Shown here one piece after another: positions 9,603-19,122 of a stretch of DNA of 64,000 bases (positions are counted from its first letter, which is position 1; each line of letters opens with the position of its first letter). Both the position numbers and the translations under genes were made by a program. The notes under the pieces are model-generated. The model made no database searches. It was not told the DNA's origin and saw only the letters and a list, made by a program, of their open reading frames with translations. Origin of the DNA: Opitutales bacterium (GTDB taxonomy: Bacteria; Verrucomicrobiota; Verrucomicrobiia; Opitutales; Seribacteraceae); contig JAQWWZ010000025.1 in NCBI GenBank assembly GCA_029254745.1, positions 62,001 to 126,000 on the forward strand, written 5' to 3'.

Positions 9603-12275
9603 TTGATGAAAAAAAATACTCCGAAAAACCAACTTGTTTATGAAAAAACTATAGAATCTGGATTGGAGCAAGTTGCTAGCGATCATAAATTCCTCGTTGA
9701 ATCTTTTTCAGTGGTATTGGAAACGATTGGCTTTTCTAACGCTGCCTCTCTTTTAAGAGAAAGAAATTTCTCAAAACAAGAAGGTGAGCTTGATCCTCAA
9801 ACCATACAAGCTATCTCTTTTTATTTTCAATTACTCAATCTTGCTGAAGAACACGGTGCAGGCAGAAGTGCCAGATTGCGGGAGAAAGAACTTGGTGGAG
9901 ATACTGAGCCTGGGCATTGGGGGCAGTACCTCCAGCAATTGAAAGGTGCAGGCTTTACCGAAACTCAGATACGAGAGAAACTTCCTTTGGTACGGGTGGA
10001 GCCTGTTTTCACAAAGCATCCTACCGAAGCCAAAAGGTGGGCAGTGCTCGGATTACACCGTGAAATTGTCCGTTTAATGCGCAAAAGGGACGCAGTAGAA
10101 ACTTCCTATGAGCAAAGCTTTTGTAACCGTTCTTTGCAAGCAGTATTGGAGCGACTTTGGCTAACCGGTGAAATTTTCTCCCGTAAACCTGAGGTGGAAA
10201 ATGAGTTGGAAAACCTTTCCTATTACTTAAAACAAGTTTTTCCCGTTGTCTTTACCAATTTAGATGATCGCTTGAGGCATGCCTGGAGAACAGTTTGGCC
10301 AGAGTCTAAACCATTGATGGATAACGAACTTCCTTCTCTGGTTTTTGGCTCTTGGGTGGGAGGAGATCGTGATGGTCATCCAAAAGTGACTGCTGAGGTT
10401 ACCCATAATACGCTAAACACTTTAAACAAGGGTGCCCGAGAAGTCATTGGCATACGTCTCCACGAGCTAGGACAAAAGTTGGCATTCAGTCGGGCTGGAC
10501 TGGAGGCACCCCAAGCATTGCTTAAGCGCTTAAAAGAGTGGGGTATCGCTGAAGATACAGCAGAACCCTGGAAAGTATTTGTTCAAGGCGTGGCCCAACG
10601 CTTACACGAAGGAGTCGCCTTGTTGAGGGAAAACCTTGAACTACTCATTAAAAGCTTGGAAGATGCAGGAGCTCTTAGAACGATGGACTTATATGTTCGC
10701 CCAGTATTGCGTTTAGTCAATAGTTTCGGCCTTCATCTAGCCCGTCTTGATGTAAGGCAAAACAGTGCGGCATATGATTTGGCTCTTAGTCAAATGATGG
10801 AAGCAGCTGGTATTAGAGATGGACAGAATTTTGGTACATGGTCTCTCGAAAAGAAACTACTTTTTTTAAATCAGGAACTGAGTCACCCCAGACCGATGAC
10901 ACATACCTCCATGGCTCTCCCACCAGAGGCTGAAGAAGTAAGGGCCACTTTTTCTGAATTAGTCGATCAAATTGATAAAAAGGGTGCGGAAGGGCTAGGT
11001 TGCCTTGTGGTGAGTATGACTCGTACTGTAGCTGATTTGCTAGTCGTTTATGTACTTGGCAAGGAAGTGGGTCTCACTCAAATGATCGATGGGAAAATGA
11101 CCTGTGCATTGCCAGTTGTACCACTCTTTGAAACTTACGAAGACCTAGAAGCCGCCCCAAAAATCATCTCTGAATTCTTAAACCATTCATGTGCGCAGGC
11201 TAGCATGGAAAAACAGGGCATAACAGCATCGCAGGTTGTCATGCTTGGGTACAGTGACAGCAACAAGGATACTGGAATTATTGCCAGCCAGTGGGCCTTA
11301 CAAAGGGCTCAGAAAAGATTATTGGTTATTGGGAGTGATTGTGGGGTATCACTAACCTTTTTTCATGGGCGGGGAGGTACTGTAGGGCGCGGAGCAGGCC
11401 CAACTCATCGTTTTTTGGAGGCTCTGCCAGCTGGCTCATTAAAGGGTGGTTTGCGTATAACCGAACAAGGGGAAGTCATCGGACAAAAGTTTAATACAGC
11501 TACCACTGCCTCATCTAATCTAGAAACATTGCTTGCCGGTTCACTAGGTGCCCAAATGTTGACATCAAAGAGTGGAGATTCTAAGCAGATCACTTCTGTT
11601 ATGGACTGCCTAGCCAAGTCTTCACGCCTTGCCTATCGCGAGCTTCTGGAAACCGATGGTTTTGTACAGTTTTACCGACAGGCGACTCCGATTGATGCGA
11701 TTGAACGCAGCCGTATTGGTTCCCGTCCGAGTCGCAGGACCGGTCAGACGAGCCTGCAGGATCTCCGTGCTATCCCGTGGGTATTTAGCTGGAATCAGTC
11801 CCGATACTACCTTCCCGGATGGTATGGAGTCGGTACAGGTTTGGAGGAGTTAAAAACTTACTACCCCACTCTCTTTGCTCAACTACCCAAACTAGTCGAG
11901 CAAAGTTCTTTTTTACGCTATGTTTTTTACAATGCAGAAAGTAGCCTTGCCAGTTCAGATCCTAAGTGGATGAAAGCATATGCTGGATTGGTCGAAGACG
12001 AAAACTTACGGCTACTTATGTTGGGAAAAATTTTAGCAGAAAGAAACCTAGCAGAGAAACATTTTAACTTCATTTTCCAAGGAACTTTACAGCAAAGGCG
12101 TCCGCGGTTCTGGAAAACCCTACAGGCTAGAGAAGATGCCCTGGGACTCCTGCATGGACAACAAATTCGCCTGCTTCAGGAATTTCGGCAAGAGGATAGA
12201 GACCAACCAGAGCGAATCGAGCGCATGCTTCTGGTAGTTAATGCGATTGCGAGTGGTCTAAGAACAACAGGATAA
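9603..12275 (+). CDS. ppc: Phosphoenolpyruvate carboxylase
   Basis: 890 aa, full length. Carboxylates PEP with bicarbonate to oxaloacetate, refilling the TCA cycle. Visible signatures are VFTKHPTEAKR with the catalytic His near residue 138, GSWVGGDRDGHPKVT, GYSDSNKDTGI, the glycine loop FHGRGGTVGRGAGPTH, and the conserved C-terminal LRTTG end. It is cytoplasmic and monocistronic. It sits in an odd place, between a secreted hydrolase gene and a relic of the same hydrolase family. Oxaloacetate links it to citrate synthase at 25893-27176. Confidence 0.97.
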   Translation: MMKKNTPKNQLVYEKTIESGLEQVASDHKFLVESFSVVLETIGFSNAASLLRERNFSKQEGELDPQTIQAISFYFQLLNLAEEHGAGRSARLREKELGGDTEPGHWGQYLQQLKGAGFTETQIREKLPLVRVEPVFTKHPTEAKRWAVLGLHREIVRLMRKRDAVETSYEQSFCNRSLQAVLERLWLTGEIFSRKPEVENELENLSYYLKQVFPVVFTNLDDRLRHAWRTVWPESKPLMDNELPSLVFGSWVGGDRDGHPKVTAEVTHNTLNTLNKGAREVIGIRLHELGQKLAFSRAGLEAPQALLKRLKEWGIAEDTAEPWKVFVQGVAQRLHEGVALLRENLELLIKSLEDAGALRTMDLYVRPVLRLVNSFGLHLARLDVRQNSAAYDLALSQMMEAAGIRDGQNFGTWSLEKKLLFLNQELSHPRPMTHTSMALPPEAEEVRATFSELVDQIDKKGAEGLGCLVVSMTRTVADLLVVYVLGKEVGLTQMIDGKMTCALPVVPLFETYEDLEAAPKIISEFLNHSCAQASMEKQGITASQVVMLGYSDSNKDTGIIASQWALQRAQKRLLVIGSDCGVSLTFFHGRGGTVGRGAGPTHRFLEALPAGSLKGGLRITEQGEVIGQKFNTATTASSNLETLLAGSLGAQMLTSKSGDSKQITSVMDCLAKSSRLAYRELLETDGFVQFYRQATPIDAIERSRIGSRPSRRTGQTSLQDLRAIPWVFSWNQSRYYLPGWYGVGTGLEELKTYYPTLFAQLPKLVEQSSFLRYVFYNAESSLASSDPKWMKAYAGLVEDENLRLLMLGKILAERNLAEKHFNFIFQGTLQQRRPRFWKTLQAREDALGLLHGQQIRLLQEFRQEDRDQPERIERMLLVVNAIASGLRTTG

Positions 12276-12486
12276 AGGTTTGCTACCTTCAGGACCCTTA
12301 AATGCCTTAAGAACTATTGGGTAAATACTAGCCTTACCCACTCATTCGTGAAGGTCTGAACCGGAATCTGATCTCTGTAAGCTATCTTGAAGCCTCCGAC
12401 ACTCACATGCCAGATAGTATTCCTAAACTGCTAAACCTATCGAACCTGCCCCAATCAAATACTTCTTCGCTGAGCAAGTGGAGTTA
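12276..12486. other. Intergenic region after ppc
   Basis: No ORF. The short inverted repeat GGGTAA/TTACCC near 12319-12340 has no T-run and is not called a terminator. The right part may be further decayed sequence of the hydrolase relic that follows, but I could not align it. Confidence 0.4.
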
Positions 12487-12765
12487 GGCAAACGGGAGGC
12501 CAAGAATGCACCATATAGTTTCATGATATTAAATTTCTGCAACTGATTAGCCTGTAGCTCGATCTACTCAAGACAAAAAGTTTACTAGGGAAGATTTCAA
12601 TGAAGGCGAACTCATTTTGGTAAGATGGACCACAGAAGATGTCGAAACTAAAAATTGACTATCGTAAAATGTAAAAGCCGGGAACTCTTCTTTCGTAGTA
12701 GTAAAATAGAGTCTGCTGAGTGTAAGCTTACCCTAGAGCCGTCACTTAACTTGCTAAGTTTTTAA
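12487..12765 (+). pseudogene. Relic of a paralogue of the 7491-9215 glycoside hydrolase (C-terminus)
   Basis: Only the last part of a hydrolase-like gene survives. Bases 12571-12653 align without gaps to about 9013-9095 of the intact gene, with 57 of 83 bases identical by my count, and encode the shared run VRWTTEDVETK. Upstream, ELGKREAKN matches LLAKRDPDQ of the intact protein after small indels. Downstream, YRKM and LTLEPSLNLLSF match the intact C-terminus, again in shifted frames. In-frame stops and frameshifts show it is not translated. The 5' half is missing or beyond recognition. Confidence 0.7.
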
Positions 12766-12997
12766 ATCTCAAGATCACCAAATCAGCTTACAATGCGTGC
12801 TTTTCAGAATCATCTACTCTTTCAATTCAGCCCAGAAATTGAATTTTATACTCTAAGAAGATGGTTTGACGGAAGAGAATAATCATTTATTAAATATTTA
12901 GATAAGCGATCATTCCATTAGCCCTTTCTTTGCTTGCCATTTTATTCCACTAGGTAGAGCTAATATTCAACCACATCCATCGAGATGGCTTGAGTGT

Positions 12998-13966
12998 TTG
13001 GCATTTATTTTTATCTTCCTACATCTTGGACTAGGTGCCAGGTCTAAGAAGTCTTTTGAAGGTCCTCCAGGCTCCAACTATGCATTTGGAGATGAGTTTG
13101 CCGGCACAAAGCTCAACCAAGAAATCTGGGGATTGGGAATCAATAAAAAAAATCTTCAAAACGAGGGCGTAGATTGTATTTACAAGCTGGAAAATATCAT
13201 TTTGGATAATGGACTTCTTATCTTTACCCAAAAAAGGGAAACCATGCCTGTAACCGGCAAAACATGGTCAAAAGAAAAAACTTTTAATTATTCCTCGGGT
13301 GGAATTCATACCCGGAAAGATTATGCACTTCGCAATAACATGTATTTAGAACTGCGTTGCAAACTTCCACGAAATAATGGAGGGTATGGTGCTTTTTGGA
13401 CAATTTCTAACAAAGTGGGAGACTGGTCGCCCGAAGATCTTTTAGAAATTGATATGTTCGAATTTATTGCTGCCCAGGAAAAAAATAGATTATGGAGCGG
13501 TTTGTGGTGGCACGATTTTAGAGCTAAAGAAATTCATCAAGGTATCCCTAAGGAATCTATGGTAAAACGTTCGGATGATCATTTCTTTATCAAGCAAAGA
13601 GTCTACAAAGCCCACCATGGACATGGTCACCAAATAAAAGGAAATACTGTCAATTTTTACGAATTTTTTACCTTTGGCTTACGGGTCACTGATAATGAAT
13701 TCTTCTGGTATCTTACCCAAGATGGACCTGCATGGAAGTCTGAACCTTATTTTAAGTTTTCCGGTGGTAAGGTGCACAACCGAACTTATGGAAAAGTCGA
13801 AGATTTTGAGTGGGAACGGCAGGTTCCAAGAAATTTAAACGTACAAATTAATTTAAATTATGCGATTCGAAGTGCGGGGTGGGCAGGTGGTCCAGTAAAA
13901 GATGAACAGCTCCCTTCGAAGATGTATATTGATTATGTGCGAGTCTTTAAACTCGATAAAAGCTAA
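12998..13966 (+). CDS. Secreted GH16 family glycoside hydrolase (laminarinase/agarase/carrageenase type)
   Basis: 322 aa. The GH16 active-site signature is visible as E-I-D-M-F-E at residues 150-155, with Glu150 as nucleophile and Glu155 as acid/base. The GGIHTR stretch (101-106), preceding aromatic residues and LPSKMYIDYVRVFK at the C-terminus are typical of GH16. It likely cleaves an algal-type beta-glucan or galactan; the substrate is not decidable from sequence. The only in-frame start with a signal-like stretch (AFIFIFLHLGLGA) is TTG at 12998. The frame stays open upstream to 12902 without an ATG, so the true start is uncertain or the 5' end is damaged. Confidence 0.8.
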   Translation: MAFIFIFLHLGLGARSKKSFEGPPGSNYAFGDEFAGTKLNQEIWGLGINKKNLQNEGVDCIYKLENIILDNGLLIFTQKRETMPVTGKTWSKEKTFNYSSGGIHTRKDYALRNNMYLELRCKLPRNNGGYGAFWTISNKVGDWSPEDLLEIDMFEFIAAQEKNRLWSGLWWHDFRAKEIHQGIPKESMVKRSDDHFFIKQRVYKAHHGHGHQIKGNTVNFYEFFTFGLRVTDNEFFWYLTQDGPAWKSEPYFKFSGGKVHNRTYGKVEDFEWERQVPRNLNVQINLNYAIRSAGWAGGPVKDEQLPSKMYIDYVRVFKLDKS

Positions 13967-14256
13967 CCACTTATCTAAGTAAAGGTTGGAATTAAAGAGT
14001 ATAAGAAATAGTGATGATATTGCTTCCTGAGCACTCGGAAATATACCTTTTACGGGAGTAAAAATTATGGGGAGAAACAGGAAACTGTAGGGTTAGGACC
14101 AAAAAGAAGGGAGGATATAATCCAAGGCGTATAATTCTGTAACGTCTTCAAACATTTTGTTTTATAAATAAAAAACAAATGTCATTGTTCTTCAAATTTC
14201 AGCCTTCGAGGGTTTGACACTAGTAAGACGAAACGCAACAACCACAATAATTGCTG
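13967..14256. other. Spacer between GH16 gene and tRNA-Arg
   Basis: No gene. An AT-rich imperfect palindrome at 14152-14182 (ACATTTTGTTTTA ... AAAAAACAAATGT) could serve as a weak bidirectional terminator for the GH16 gene and tRNA-Arg, which face each other here. Confidence 0.35.
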
Positions 14257-14330
14257 GCGCTCCCGCTGGGAGTCGAACCCAGATCTTCGGTTCCGGAGAC
14301 CAATATTCTATCCATTGAACTACAGGAGCG
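14257..14330 (-). tRNA. tRNA-Arg (anticodon CCG)
   Basis: On the reverse strand the acceptor stem CGCTCCT pairs with GGGAGCG (one G-T pair). The anticodon stem TTGGT/ACCGA frames the loop CTCCGGA, so the anticodon is CCG, reading the CGG codon. The T arm contains GGTTCGACTCC. The CCA end is not fully encoded: CAG follows the discriminator base. Confidence 0.93.
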
Positions 14331-15125
14331 TAAGCCTTGTGAGCACTGAATCCTAGAGTCAACCTTCCAGGAAAAAGTTAATATATCTACCTTCGATTTT
14401 ATTTTTGTTACTAATTCCTTTGCTGCCTTTGGACATATTAAAGCGAGCACATCTCTAAAAATCAAAGAATTCACGATCGAGAGTCGTAAAAAATTCGGAA
14501 ATGTATTGTTTAAGGTTAGCATTCTCACCAAATAATACTACGCGGGATCCCGAGTTCAAGCAACTCCGAAAGATGAAGACAGAACAATAAATTAGGGATA
14601 CGAATCGACATGGGAATACCATCAGTTGGCGGCGAGTTTGGAAAAGAGAGAATAAGCTAAAATGGTAAAAACTGTAATGCCCCAAAACATGGATATTCTG
14701 TGAATTGGGTAACGCCTGCAAGGCTTGCCTCAAAGCACAAGGTTTGCAAGTCCGCAAAACATAGGAAAAAAACAGCATATTCAATTAAATAAAAGAGGAC
14801 GACATAAATGGATCCTAGAAATCTATTAAAACTATCCTAGATAAAAATCATTTTTTAAGGTCATCATCTTAAGAAAGAGGTAATCGTAGAGTTGCCTCAA
14901 TTTTGGCAAATAAAGAGTTGGAATGATCAAACATGATTGAATAACTTCGAGGCAATAAAAGCATTTTTCCTATAATTCAATAAGAAGAATTTTGTACTAT
15001 AAAGTCCTAATGGTATAACAGCAAACGGCCTCAGTTGGGCGTAATACATTACCAAGAGTATGCTTTACACTCGACGTGCCCGAAAGGTTCATAAATGCTT
15101 TTCTACAGTCCAAAGACTGCACAAC
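14331..15125. other. Long intergenic region without a confident gene
   Basis: About 800 bp with no credible intact ORF. On the plus strand, roughly 14350-14530 reads as about 60 open codons ending in a stop, and the same frame continues after it with protein-like text. This could be another decayed gene, but I cannot match it to anything. Minus-strand ORFs here look random in composition. Confidence 0.4.
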
Positions 15126-15656
15126 ATAAAGTTTTGCCTCATTACGACTTTCACAAGGTTTGTGCCCTGGTGAAATCAATGATGATTGGAATGCTGAAAC
15201 AGCACTAAAATGGCATCCCTTTACCCTTGATACAGAAGAAGGTTTAAAGCCTGAGGTTATTATTCCTTTCATTGGACAAAGAATATTAACGAGCATCGAA
15301 ATCTATCAGAAAAGTGCACTCAAATCCTCAAGGAGGAGGTGCAAGGAGAACTGATGTAATTCCAAAGCAAAATGGTATTCACAGATTGGGACAATTACGC
15401 CGTGCTTACGGATTAACTTATGTAAGTAGTAATGTCGCAAGAAGGACCGTAATCAATAAAACCCATCATCCAGGTAAACCTATAACTGATGAAAGTGCAA
15501 TAAACCTTCAATTTAGTAACACAAAAGATGGTTCTGTCACAATTGAAGATAAAAAGAGTTTTGGGCCTAAATGTTGCTTAAGAAGAATTCTTTGTTGAAG
15601 AAGGAAAGGTAGAAAAACCTGACTCATTGGCAGAATTAAGATTCCGTAAATACTGA
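15126..15656 (+). pseudogene. Decayed protein gene with at least two frameshifts, family not recognised
   Basis: Three consecutive plus-strand frames carry coding-like text that joins into one protein. Frame 1 (about 15126-15312) encodes LCPGEINDDWNAETALKWHP and PEVIIPFIGQRILTSIEIYQ. Frame 2 (about 15314-15590) carries QGGGARRTDVIPKQNGIHRL and GLTYVSSNVARRT. Frame 3 carries FFVEEGKVEKPDSLAELRF and ends at TGA 15654-15656. Shifts occur near 15310 and 15590. No upstream start is visible, because a stop precedes 15126. Family and function are unknown to me. It lies before another secreted protein gene on the same strand. Confidence 0.55.
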
Positions 15657-15920
15657 TTGCGACTCATATCCAAATGATCCGCACCATGTTTCCCAGTTTC
15701 TGTTTTTTACCGAGAACAAATGAGCTTGAAGATACTTTTTTAGAGTCAAAGATTCTAGTTGTCATTGTTTTCATTGCCAAGATTCCTAAAAGGTATGGAT
15801 ATTCACCTATCATATTACTGATCCCAATTGAAAAGCCATCAAAATAAAAATTAAACGAGTCTAAAATTTACCTCCTTAAATAATACTTGTATGATTAAAA
15901 AAAGTGCTTTAGTGTAACTT

Positions 15921-16991
15921 ATGAAAAGTATTATAAATATATTAATATTGGCTTTATTCTCTTTAACTCAAGCCACTGCCTCGGAGTGGTTGTACTACAA
16001 AAAATTCCCATGGGTCTTCGATGACAAAACTGAAGATTGGCTCTATTTATGGGGTGGTGAAAACGGGAAAGTTTATGCGTTTAGCTCAAACAGTCAGGCT
16101 TGGTCTGAATTTATGCCATACGAGAATCATGAAACTGTTATTTCCGATACAAATGGTCAAGCGGTAGTCGTAAAACATGGAGATGAATACTCCTGGTCCA
16201 ACGACCTTGATGGAACCATCCTTCGGGCTGCTGAATGGGAGCAAGGTGAAACTCCAGATATTGCGACGGTTAAATTCGAAAATGGAAATATTTTGTATGG
16301 ATTTAATACCTTTTCAACGGATGTCGCCGATCTGGGAAACAATAAAGTTTCTTACAGTATTGATGAAAATGGATACTTGAAAAGCTTAGAAGGAGATGGG
16401 GACTATCAATACTATAATATTGCCAGCGTGAAAGATGGCATTATCGGTACGATACAAAATGACCAAGGGGTGGACTCTGTTGCAAATAATGGTGTAAACC
16501 AAATCGACCAATGGTTTTTCACCACCAAAGCCGCAGCCGAGGCATTCTACCAAGAAAAATCTTCCCCTTCTGTTGTGGTCACAGATACTAACGGGCAAAC
16601 AGTCGTCGTTCAGTCAGGCAACGAGTACTCTTGGAACAGCTCTCTGGATGGTATAACATTATGGTCTGTTGAGTGGGAGCCCGGAGAAACTCCTGACACC
16701 TACACTTACAAGTTTGAAAATGGAAGAAACTTGGGAAATATAGGCTTCTTCGATTACCTTTCGGGACAACAACCTTACGATAAGCCGTATGTGATAGATG
16801 AAAATGGATATTTAAAGGTTACGGAAACAAATTATCAATACTACAATGTGGTAAGTTATGAAAACGGGGCAATCGGTACCATTCAAAATGACGGAGGCTT
16901 GGAGTCCGTCGCTGACAACGGTGTCAACCAAATCGACCAATGGTTTTTTACTACCAAAGCGGCCGCCGAGATATTTTTAAACTCCTTGTAA
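15921..16991 (+). CDS. Secreted protein with Trp/Tyr-rich N-terminus and two tandem ~135-residue repeats
   Basis: 356 aa. A signal peptide covers residues 1-20 with an A-T-A site before SEW. Residues 21-66 form a Trp/Tyr-rich segment (EWLYYKKFPWVF, DWLYLWGG, YAFSSNSQAWSEF) resembling surface modules I associate with Verrucomicrobia. Two homologous repeats follow, at 73-210 and 218-352. Each has DTNGQ-VVV, EYSW, EW-GETPD, IDENGYLK, QYYN, GTIQND and closes with NQIDQWFFTTKAAAE. It is probably extracellular or outer-membrane associated. Function is unknown and no catalytic motif is seen. No partner gene is intact nearby. Confidence 0.75.
   Translation: MKSIINILILALFSLTQATASEWLYYKKFPWVFDDKTEDWLYLWGGENGKVYAFSSNSQAWSEFMPYENHETVISDTNGQAVVVKHGDEYSWSNDLDGTILRAAEWEQGETPDIATVKFENGNILYGFNTFSTDVADLGNNKVSYSIDENGYLKSLEGDGDYQYYNIASVKDGIIGTIQNDQGVDSVANNGVNQIDQWFFTTKAAAEAFYQEKSSPSVVVTDTNGQTVVVQSGNEYSWNSSLDGITLWSVEWEPGETPDTYTYKFENGRNLGNIGFFDYLSGQQPYDKPYVIDENGYLKVTETNYQYYNVVSYENGAIGTIQNDGGLESVADNGVNQIDQWFFTTKAAAEIFLNSL
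16137..16976 (+). repeat. Internal tandem duplication within the secreted protein gene
   Basis: Unit A is 16137-16550 and unit B is 16572-16976. The 3' ends of both units are nearly identical at DNA level over about 50 bp (16494-16548 versus 16922-16975), including the shared run AACCAAATCGACCAATGG, while the centres differ more. This fits a duplication followed by divergence or by conversion of the ends. Confidence 0.8.
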
Positions 16992-17455
16992 CGCCATCAC
17001 ACTGAAGCTGTTTCTGGAATCTATCCAAAACCTCAAGGAGTTTGTTTTGTAATAAAACCACTAAACAATAATACTTTTACTATTCTTGGGAAACTCGCTC
17101 CAAATGAATGGATATAACCTATAATCTTTGAAATAAATAGTGCTAAAATTAATTTTTTATCTACTAACTTTAATATCATATAAATCGCATTAAGGTTAGA
17201 ATAATAATAGTTGAAGACGGGACTAGCTACGACTGCTTCTAATTTGCAACTTACTTGTAAACGCAAAAAAACACTCAAATTTTCTAAAGATTACCAAACA
17301 GCATTATTAGTCTGCCAATTTATTGATTCTAACAGCGCATTTAAAGTTATAAATTAGTAAAGTAATCTATTTTCCGTAGCTTATTTCGATCATCTAAAGA
17401 TTTATTGCGAATGATTGGTCTTGCTTGCTGTCCTATCGTTCTTATCAAATATTGG
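16992..17455. other. Intergenic region upstream of purE
   Basis: AT-rich, with no credible gene. A minus-strand ORF at 17033-17278 (81 codons) has no family features and is not called. I see no purine riboswitch or clear promoter. Confidence 0.4.
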
Positions 17456-17965
17456 ATGACTAGTTCAAATGCGCCGTGCGTAGGAATAATCATGGGAAGC
17501 CAATCCGATTGGCCAACTTTAGAAAAAGCAACTCAGACCCTCGATGATTTTGAGGTAAAATGGGAAGCGAAAGTTGTGAGTGCACATAGAACACCTGAGC
17601 TTCTCTACGACTATGCCAAGACAGCTGAAAATCGGGGGTTGAAGTGTATCATCGCAGGGGCAGGGGGAGCCGCTCATCTTCCTGGTATGACTGCCGCCAT
17701 AACCACAATTCCAGTGTTAGGAGTCCCTGTTAAATCTAAAACACTTCAAGGTATAGACTCACTTCTGTCTATCGTTCAAATGCCAGCAGGTATACCCACA
17801 GCCACATTTGCCATAGGTGAGGCAGGAGCTACTAATGCCGCTCTTTTTGCCATCTCTATGCTTGCAACAATGGGCAATACAGTACTTGGCGAAAAATTAA
17901 GAGACTTTAGGTCTAATCAAAAAAAACAAATTGAAATAAGCAAACTTCCTCCTACTGATTCATAA
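17456..17965 (+). CDS. purE: N5-carboxyaminoimidazole ribonucleotide mutase
   Basis: 169 aa from ATG 17456. Converts N5-CAIR to CAIR in purine synthesis. Class I PurE signatures are [12 protein letters not shown] at the N-terminus, [14 protein letters not shown] with the catalytic His, and [14 protein letters not shown]. The open frame extends upstream to a TTG at 17405, but the extra residues (including [12 protein letters not shown]) do not belong to the family, so 17456 is preferred. purK follows after 2 bp; the two act in sequence. Confidence 0.95.
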
Positions 17966-17967
17966 AT

Positions 17968-19122
17968 ATGATTCTGAAAGGAAACAACTGGTTGGGAGTT
18001 CTTGGCGGTGGCCAACTTGGAAGGATGCTGTCATTAGATGCACGAAGAATGGGCTTTAATGTTTTGGCATGGACAGGCGGAGACCGATCAGGAGCCGCGG
18101 CTACGGCTGATCAAATCATTGATGCACCTTTTGATGATCCCAATGCTTTAGATGAATTTACGAAAAAGGTACAAGTTGCCACGGTTGAATTTGAGAACTT
18201 ACCCCAAACTACCCTCGAGAAAGTTGAAGATCGAGTGAAACTTTTCCCGAGTCCTCAGGCTGTAACAATCTGCCAACATCGAGAAAGAGAGAAGAATTTT
18301 CTCTCTGAACATGGGTTTGCATGCGCAAAATTTAGAGTAGCTCATGATTTGATCACTTTTAAACATGCTATTCACGAATTACATTGCGATGTAATCGTAA
18401 AAACTGCTGAATTCGGATATGATGGCAAGGGCCAAGTCAGGTTAAATAAATCCTTATCGGAGCAGGAAATTACTCAAGCGTGGGAAGCATTTAATGGCGG
18501 ACGTGTCGTCATTGAAGAGTGTATTTCCTTGCAGGCCGAACTCTCTGTTATCGTGGCACGCAGTAGTAAATGTGAAATCTTAACCTATGATCCAGTAGAA
18601 AATATTCACAGAAATCATATTCTTGATGTTTCTATTGTTCCTGCCCGTATTCCGGAAAGCATACAAGCTGAGGCTAAAGATATTGCCTTATCCATTGCAG
18701 ATACTCTTCAATATGTGGGTATCCTAGCGGTTGAATTCTTTTTATCTGCGGATGGCCGCTTAGTTGTGAATGAATTGGCACCAAGGCCTCACAATTCCGG
18801 ACACCATACGCTTAATGCATGCACTTGCTCACAGTTTGAAAACCAGGCAAGAGCGATTGCTGGTCTACCTTTAGGTAGCACGAAGCTTCTTTCACCCGTC
18901 GTTATGATGAATCTGCTTGGCGATCTCTGGATCGATGAAAATACGCCCCCCAACTGGGATCCAATCACTTCATCCCAAGGTGCATCACTCCATCTTTACG
19001 GTAAGAGAGAAGCACGAGCAGGGCGTAAAATGGGCCATGCAACCTTCATGAACAGTTCTCTCGAGAAAACGATAGAGCAAATCAATGTTGCTCGAGAATT
19101 TTTTAAGCTTCCTGCAGTCTAA
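17968..19122 (+). CDS. purK: N5-carboxyaminoimidazole ribonucleotide synthase
   Basis: 384 aa, an ATP-grasp enzyme that makes N5-CAIR from AIR, bicarbonate and ATP. Visible features are LGVLGGGQLGRML at the N-terminus, the ATP-grasp residues in VKTAEFGYDGKGQ, VIEECISLQAELSVIVAR, and VNELAPRPHNSGHHT. The order and 2-bp spacing after purE indicate a bicistronic operon. Its presence shows the two-step PurK/PurE route rather than direct carboxylation. Confidence 0.95.
   Translation: MILKGNNWLGVLGGGQLGRMLSLDARRMGFNVLAWTGGDRSGAAATADQIIDAPFDDPNALDEFTKKVQVATVEFENLPQTTLEKVEDRVKLFPSPQAVTICQHREREKNFLSEHGFACAKFRVAHDLITFKHAIHELHCDVIVKTAEFGYDGKGQVRLNKSLSEQEITQAWEAFNGGRVVIEECISLQAELSVIVARSSKCEILTYDPVENIHRNHILDVSIVPARIPESIQAEAKDIALSIADTLQYVGILAVEFFLSADGRLVVNELAPRPHNSGHHTLNACTCSQFENQARAIAGLPLGSTKLLSPVVMMNLLGDLWIDENTPPNWDPITSSQGASLHLYGKREARAGRKMGHATFMNSSLEKTIEQINVAREFFKLPAV

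Follow-up and report, generated by a model that had tools for sequence, protein, structure and literature searches.

Choline- and cell-wall-binding aromatic repeats are short, Trp/Tyr-rich units that occur in repeated form on surface proteins. The Trp/Tyr module described here shares this general description and is found on a protein encoded at positions 15921..16991 of the window, the whole 64,000-nucleotide stretch of DNA that was analyzed. It differs from the known repeats in that neither this protein (the window protein) nor two full modules had any Pfam-A match at E values up to 10.

PEP-CTERM tags are the second system for comparison. As published, a tag is composed of a PEP motif, a transmembrane helix, and a basic cluster at the C-terminus, and many diverse exported proteins of one genome share this one terminal module (PMC1569441). 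The Trp/Tyr module is likewise shared by many diverse proteins of one genome. As read by eye, it differs in having no PEP motif, transmembrane helix, or basic tail; it is also approximately 45-88 amino acids long, rich in Trp, and able to occupy the N-terminus. Membership in the PEP-CTERM family was rejected because the C-terminus of the window protein, which ends in QWFFTTKAAAEIFLNSL, and the module consensus both lack all three tag parts by eye, even though the genome encodes an exosortase (PF09721, 112.8 bits against a cut-off of 25.7, on contig C21; one of 14 control genomes was also positive). The exosortase suggests that another surface-sorting route probably exists in this organism, which counts against the surface-anchor reading of the module given below.

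The C-terminal domain of type IX secretion substrates is the third. No match to this family, or to any other NCBIfam family, was found for the window protein at E values up to 10 or for two full modules at E values up to 1.

The window gene (15921..16991, plus strand) is an intact open reading frame that starts with ATG and encodes 356 amino acids. Its translation, read by eye, opens with a hydrophobic Sec signal sequence, MKSIINILILALFSLTQATA followed by S (residues 1-20, ending in ATA before the S; 15921..15980, plus strand), and the protein is probably exported on the strength of this signal. The 336-residue mature part lacks cysteine and is acidic, with a pI of 4.05; its aromatic residues number 12 Trp, 24 Tyr, and 16 Phe. 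Residues 22-65 (15984..16115, plus strand) form a Trp/Tyr half-module, matched by the half-module profile A2 at E 2.8e-17 with the segment included in A2. The profile of the full module, A5, does not include this segment and matches it at profile positions 46-88 with E 0.0022. The full module is approximately 88 amino acids long, and the window protein carries its second half only.

Two repeat units follow. Unit 1 has 141 amino acids (residues 73-213; 16137..16559, plus strand) and unit 2 has 138 (residues 219-356; 16575..16988, plus strand), with E values of 1.9e-56 and 6.2e-61 against the unit profile A1, in which both are included. Both units have the regular ending reported in the first-pass annotation, NQIDQWFFTTKAAAE, close to their ends. 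It is encoded by 45 nt at 16497..16541 in unit 1 and at 16926..16970 in unit 2 (plus strand, positions counted by hand), and 41 of the 45 nt are identical. That annotation had proposed a secreted protein made of a Trp/Tyr module and two 135-residue repeats; the layout stands, as does the signal sequence as read by eye, and the repeat length is corrected to 141 and 138. Judged from its sequence, the window protein is an unremarkable exported protein specific to its lineage.

The module is more widely used than this one gene. An alignment of 12 modules has ten invariant columns (W7, G9, W19, H22, W27, W39, W47, W49, P56, and W66), seven of which are Trp. Whole or half modules are present at 29 places in the same genome. 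Twenty-seven were found with A5 (E <= 0.01), which was built from 10 modules of this genome, all among the 27, and one each from genomes G034 and G029. The other two, C3:2619 and C27:1745, were listed with A2 only and both contributed to it. A2 was built from 11 half-modules, six from this genome, and has 18 matches in it at E <= 1. The module is usually C-terminal, ending within 14 amino acids of the stop codon in 22 of the 29 places. It is N-terminal in three (the window protein, a leucine-rich repeat protein on contig C27, and a protein on contig C38), internal in two (60 and 127 amino acids from the stop), truncated at a contig end in one, and interrupted by stops in one. This C-terminal preference, and the standing of the window copy as an N-terminal half-module, were not part of the earlier description.

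The partners of the module were scanned against Pfam for 20 of the 29 places, where many frames are cut by the end of the locus, for two more places, and for the window protein. Thirteen of the 20 frames have a domain above the cut-off. Eleven of these contain Ig, cadherin, or InlB B-repeat domains, in one case with a subtilase domain (L071) and in another with DUF1800 (L062); the remaining two contain trypsin and FGE-sulfatase domains. Five frames have no Pfam match (L058, L059, L067, L068, and L069), and two have sub-threshold matches only (L074 and L079), so these scans characterize the cargo in part. One of the unmatched frames, L067 on contig C38, spans 448 amino acids and has a full module near a signal-like N-terminus, with a long domain behind it. 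A 638-amino-acid module protein on contig C60 also has no Pfam match. The module profile A5 had no match in the PDB, and among the matches listed in a search of open-licence literature, by title and the start of the abstract, no paper concerned the module or the unit.

Across the family, every one of the 42 genomes has A5 matches at E <= 1e-4, from 3 to 39 per genome, and 39 of these genomes did not contribute to the profile. In an even draw of 194 genomes from the phylum, seven are positive: the genome of the window (23 matches), three genomes of one other family in the order (16, 23, and, in G160, at least 27), and three further genomes that match once apiece. A2 is positive in four of the 194 at E <= 0.001. 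Phylum draws are even samples rather than all species and many of the genomes are incomplete, which makes absences soft. These counts, which answer a proposal to count the module in related genomes, agree with the first-pass view of the N-terminal module as lineage-specific, and it recurs on proteins of extracellular type.

The favored reading, held tentatively at a probability of roughly 45%, is that exported proteins are kept at the cell surface by the module, which would probably bind a glycan, and that the units serve as binding or spacer domains on display. The Sec route would export the window protein, and the aromatic half-module would retain it at the cell surface or in an exopolymer coat, most likely through Trp and Tyr side chains that stack on a glycan. 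The anchor would then display the two WFFTT-type units as ligand-binding or spacer domains. Adhesion, one of the roles suggested in the first-pass annotation, may also apply. A portable surface-retention module would be the simplest account of a domain that is aromatic and compact, lies at either end of a protein or inside it, joins varied extracellular partners, and has multiplied in the lineage.

The main rival to a surface anchor is a C-terminal secretion signal. The module would be an export signal for a dedicated outer-membrane secretion machine, similar to the type IX C-terminal domain, and the N-terminal copies would be exceptions. The mostly C-terminal positions, with 22 of 29 copies ending within 14 amino acids of the stop, fit this as well. 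The cargo is diverse, as expected on this reading, and 3-39 matches per genome resemble a sorting tag. The three N-terminal and two internal copies speak against an export signal but are not decisive, and by eye the module has no hydrophobic helix or basic tail. A folded binding module would explain occurrence at the N-terminus, at the C-terminus, and internally more readily than a cleaved tail. The type IX component SprA (TIGR04189) gave no match in this genome, and equally none in all 14 control genomes. An export signal is considered possible but doubtful.

A carbohydrate-binding module for environmental polysaccharide is unlikely. Such a module would aim enzymes and large fibrous proteins at food particles rather than at the cell itself, and both the Trp-dense composition and partners that include two peptidases and a domain of FGE-sulfatase type would suit it. 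However, the 11 partners with Ig, cadherin, or InlB-type domains dominate the 13 that are annotated, and no polysaccharide-degrading enzyme is named among the partners at the 20 of 29 places scanned, many of them cut frames.

The repeat unit has no described family. The window units have no Pfam-A match above the curated cut-off, and 10 unit sequences returned only four stray Pfam families, each with one of the 10, the best being DUF5640 at E 0.011. Two unit-bearing proteins had no NCBIfam match at E values up to 1. Among solved structures in the PDB, the best E values were 0.87 for the window protein and 1.3 for the profile A6, neither of which is credible. The first-pass annotation had seen no recognizable enzyme motif in the repeat and had named a match to a well-characterized domain family as the result that would refute it; in the sequence and profile searches no such match appeared. 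By hhalign, homology of the unit to the module or to the 'SLSGK' repeats of neighboring proteins also has no support (probability 0.2 in each case). Ten aligned units share five invariant residues, G7, L24, F125, A131, and E132 in the numbering of unit 2. Conservation thus peaks at the unit end around FFTTKAAAE. AlphaFold2 models, with mean pLDDT values of 37.0 and 33.2, are too poor to interpret, also with regard to a lipocalin-like or other named beta fold, and at most suggest strands with a terminal helix. WFFTT-type units are probably beta-rich.

The unit is rarer than the module. With A1 it is found in nine of the 42 family genomes at E <= 0.001, and five of the nine (G000, G006, G029, G034, and G038) supplied the seven units from which A1 was built. 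The other positives are G016, G022, G027, and G008, the last with a weak and partial match. An earlier search with a single sequence found seven of 42 at E <= 0.01; these included a marginal match to a plastocyanin-like protein of G032 (E 0.0057), which A1 did not repeat and which is left out of the count. In an even phylum draw of 387 genomes, the only positive is the genome of the window. A phage or plasmid origin found no support: phages and plasmids had no tblastn match at E values up to 1, and one scan of viral contigs returned no relative. A scan of genome contigs with the window protein, which reaches close relatives only, returned 15 pattern matches and confirmed a single relative, in TMED44.

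Unit and module are, as far as these sequences go, tightly associated. A unit, whole or partial, is present at 13 places: 11 clear cases including the window gene, the partial match in G008, and a remnant on contig C9 of the window genome. The module is also present at 11 of the 13, in the same open frame at 10 and across a frame break at one (G038:C10, at approximately 89.4 kb). No module was found in the stretches examined around the G008 match, where the stretch ends before the frame does, or around the C9 remnant. This remnant (C9:65493-65612) is a decayed unit C-terminus of approximately 40 amino acids with an in-frame stop, in a 3.1-kb locus. The module follows the unit at nine of the 11 places; the window gene and G038:C2 have it ahead of the unit.

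The proteins that share this combination of unit and module with the window protein are four from G038 and others from G034, G006, G029, G022, G027, and TMED44. They are longer than the window protein, except that of TMED44, and several have DDFSG/Laminin_G-like domains. They also differ in module order, except for the G038:C2 protein. The TMED44 protein has 170 amino acids and is identical to one in G016, a genome of the same genus. Its gene (L008:4857-5369) runs from a DDFSG..LDTSKW stretch straight into the second half of a unit and then into the module, a layout that an internal deletion could explain. The unit-bearing proteins of G034:C66 and G022:C25 contain extended low-complexity runs of YQTPSGG or GGHYQSGG repeats. 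A close relative of the N-terminal part is the paralogue on contig C27 of the window genome, a stop-to-stop frame of 410 amino acids with a signal sequence and an N-terminal half-module that is 51% identical over residues 14-70. This paralogue has LRR_4/LRR_8 repeats in place of WFFTT units.

The repeat of two units is far beyond chance: their alignment has a score of 397, and none of 300 shuffles exceeded 42. Over 138 aligned codons, 82 residues and 249 of the 414 bases are identical, the same codon is used at 40 of the 82 identical residues, and fourfold sites agree at eight of 30, which is saturation. The DNA near-identity at the unit ends, which the first-pass annotation took as a sign of recent duplication, is real for the 45 nt over NQIDQWFFTTKAAAE and confined to them; the preceding 93 nt agree at 63 positions. 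The C-terminal half of unit 1 shares 53 of 69 residues with the TMED44 copy, 50 of 69 with a G038 copy, and 47 of 67 with unit 2. The N-terminal half of unit 2 shares 38 of 70 with G038, slightly above the 34 of 71 shared with unit 1. Recent duplication was thus rejected, because the fourfold sites are saturated and the C-terminal half of unit 1 resembles unit 2 and the units of other species equally. The two units are best described as the products of an old duplication, preserved by selection at the protein level. The 45-nt near-identity could reflect constraint or a short conversion. Within these 45 nt, unit 1 shares five of five fourfold sites with TMED44 and two of five with unit 2, so conversion is not favored, on few sites.

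It is very unlikely that the window gene is a relic, intact but no longer needed, of a rapidly changing family of paralogues: the decayed fragment on C9, the short TMED44 copy, the frame-broken copy in G038, and the restriction of units to nine of 42 family genomes would fit, but the window frame is open, and the residues kept between units despite saturated fourfold sites indicate long purifying selection.

The window gene lies between a GH16-like gene and purE/purK, as named by eye. The 322-amino-acid GH16-like protein (12998-13966) has an EIDMFE motif by eye and no Pfam match at E values up to 0.01. A tRNA-Arg(ccg) lies at 14255-14329 on the minus strand and is followed by approximately 1.6 kb with short ORFs only before the gene; Rfam detected only tRNA over 12000-18000. 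The promoter search gave no signal (eight found against 7.0, sd 2.9, in shuffles), and the terminator search found none. A glycosyltransferase-like gene is near the unit genes of G038, G006, and TMED44, and the TMED44 unit gene also precedes EamA-like and CoA-ligase-like genes (all named by eye). On contig C50 of the window genome, a half-module lies at the very start, and the same EamA-like and CoA-ligase-like genes come directly after it. Because this contig begins where the half-module starts, a second unit gene of the genome may be lost at its edge.

A bolder form of the surface-anchor reading, possible but doubtful, is that the module marks a dedicated new surface-display system of this lineage of Verrucomicrobiota, parallel to PEP-CTERM/exosortase and built on a folded Trp-rich domain with no fixed terminus. 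The window protein would be a minimal natural construct of this system, an anchor with two displayed units. With 356 amino acids, one half-module, and two units, it is small enough to be well suited to tests of expression, binding, and structure. The family-wide module without a Pfam or NCBIfam match is of more interest than the window protein itself. Should the module act as a surface anchor, sequence would reveal many extracellular proteins in a lineage represented mostly by draft genomes.
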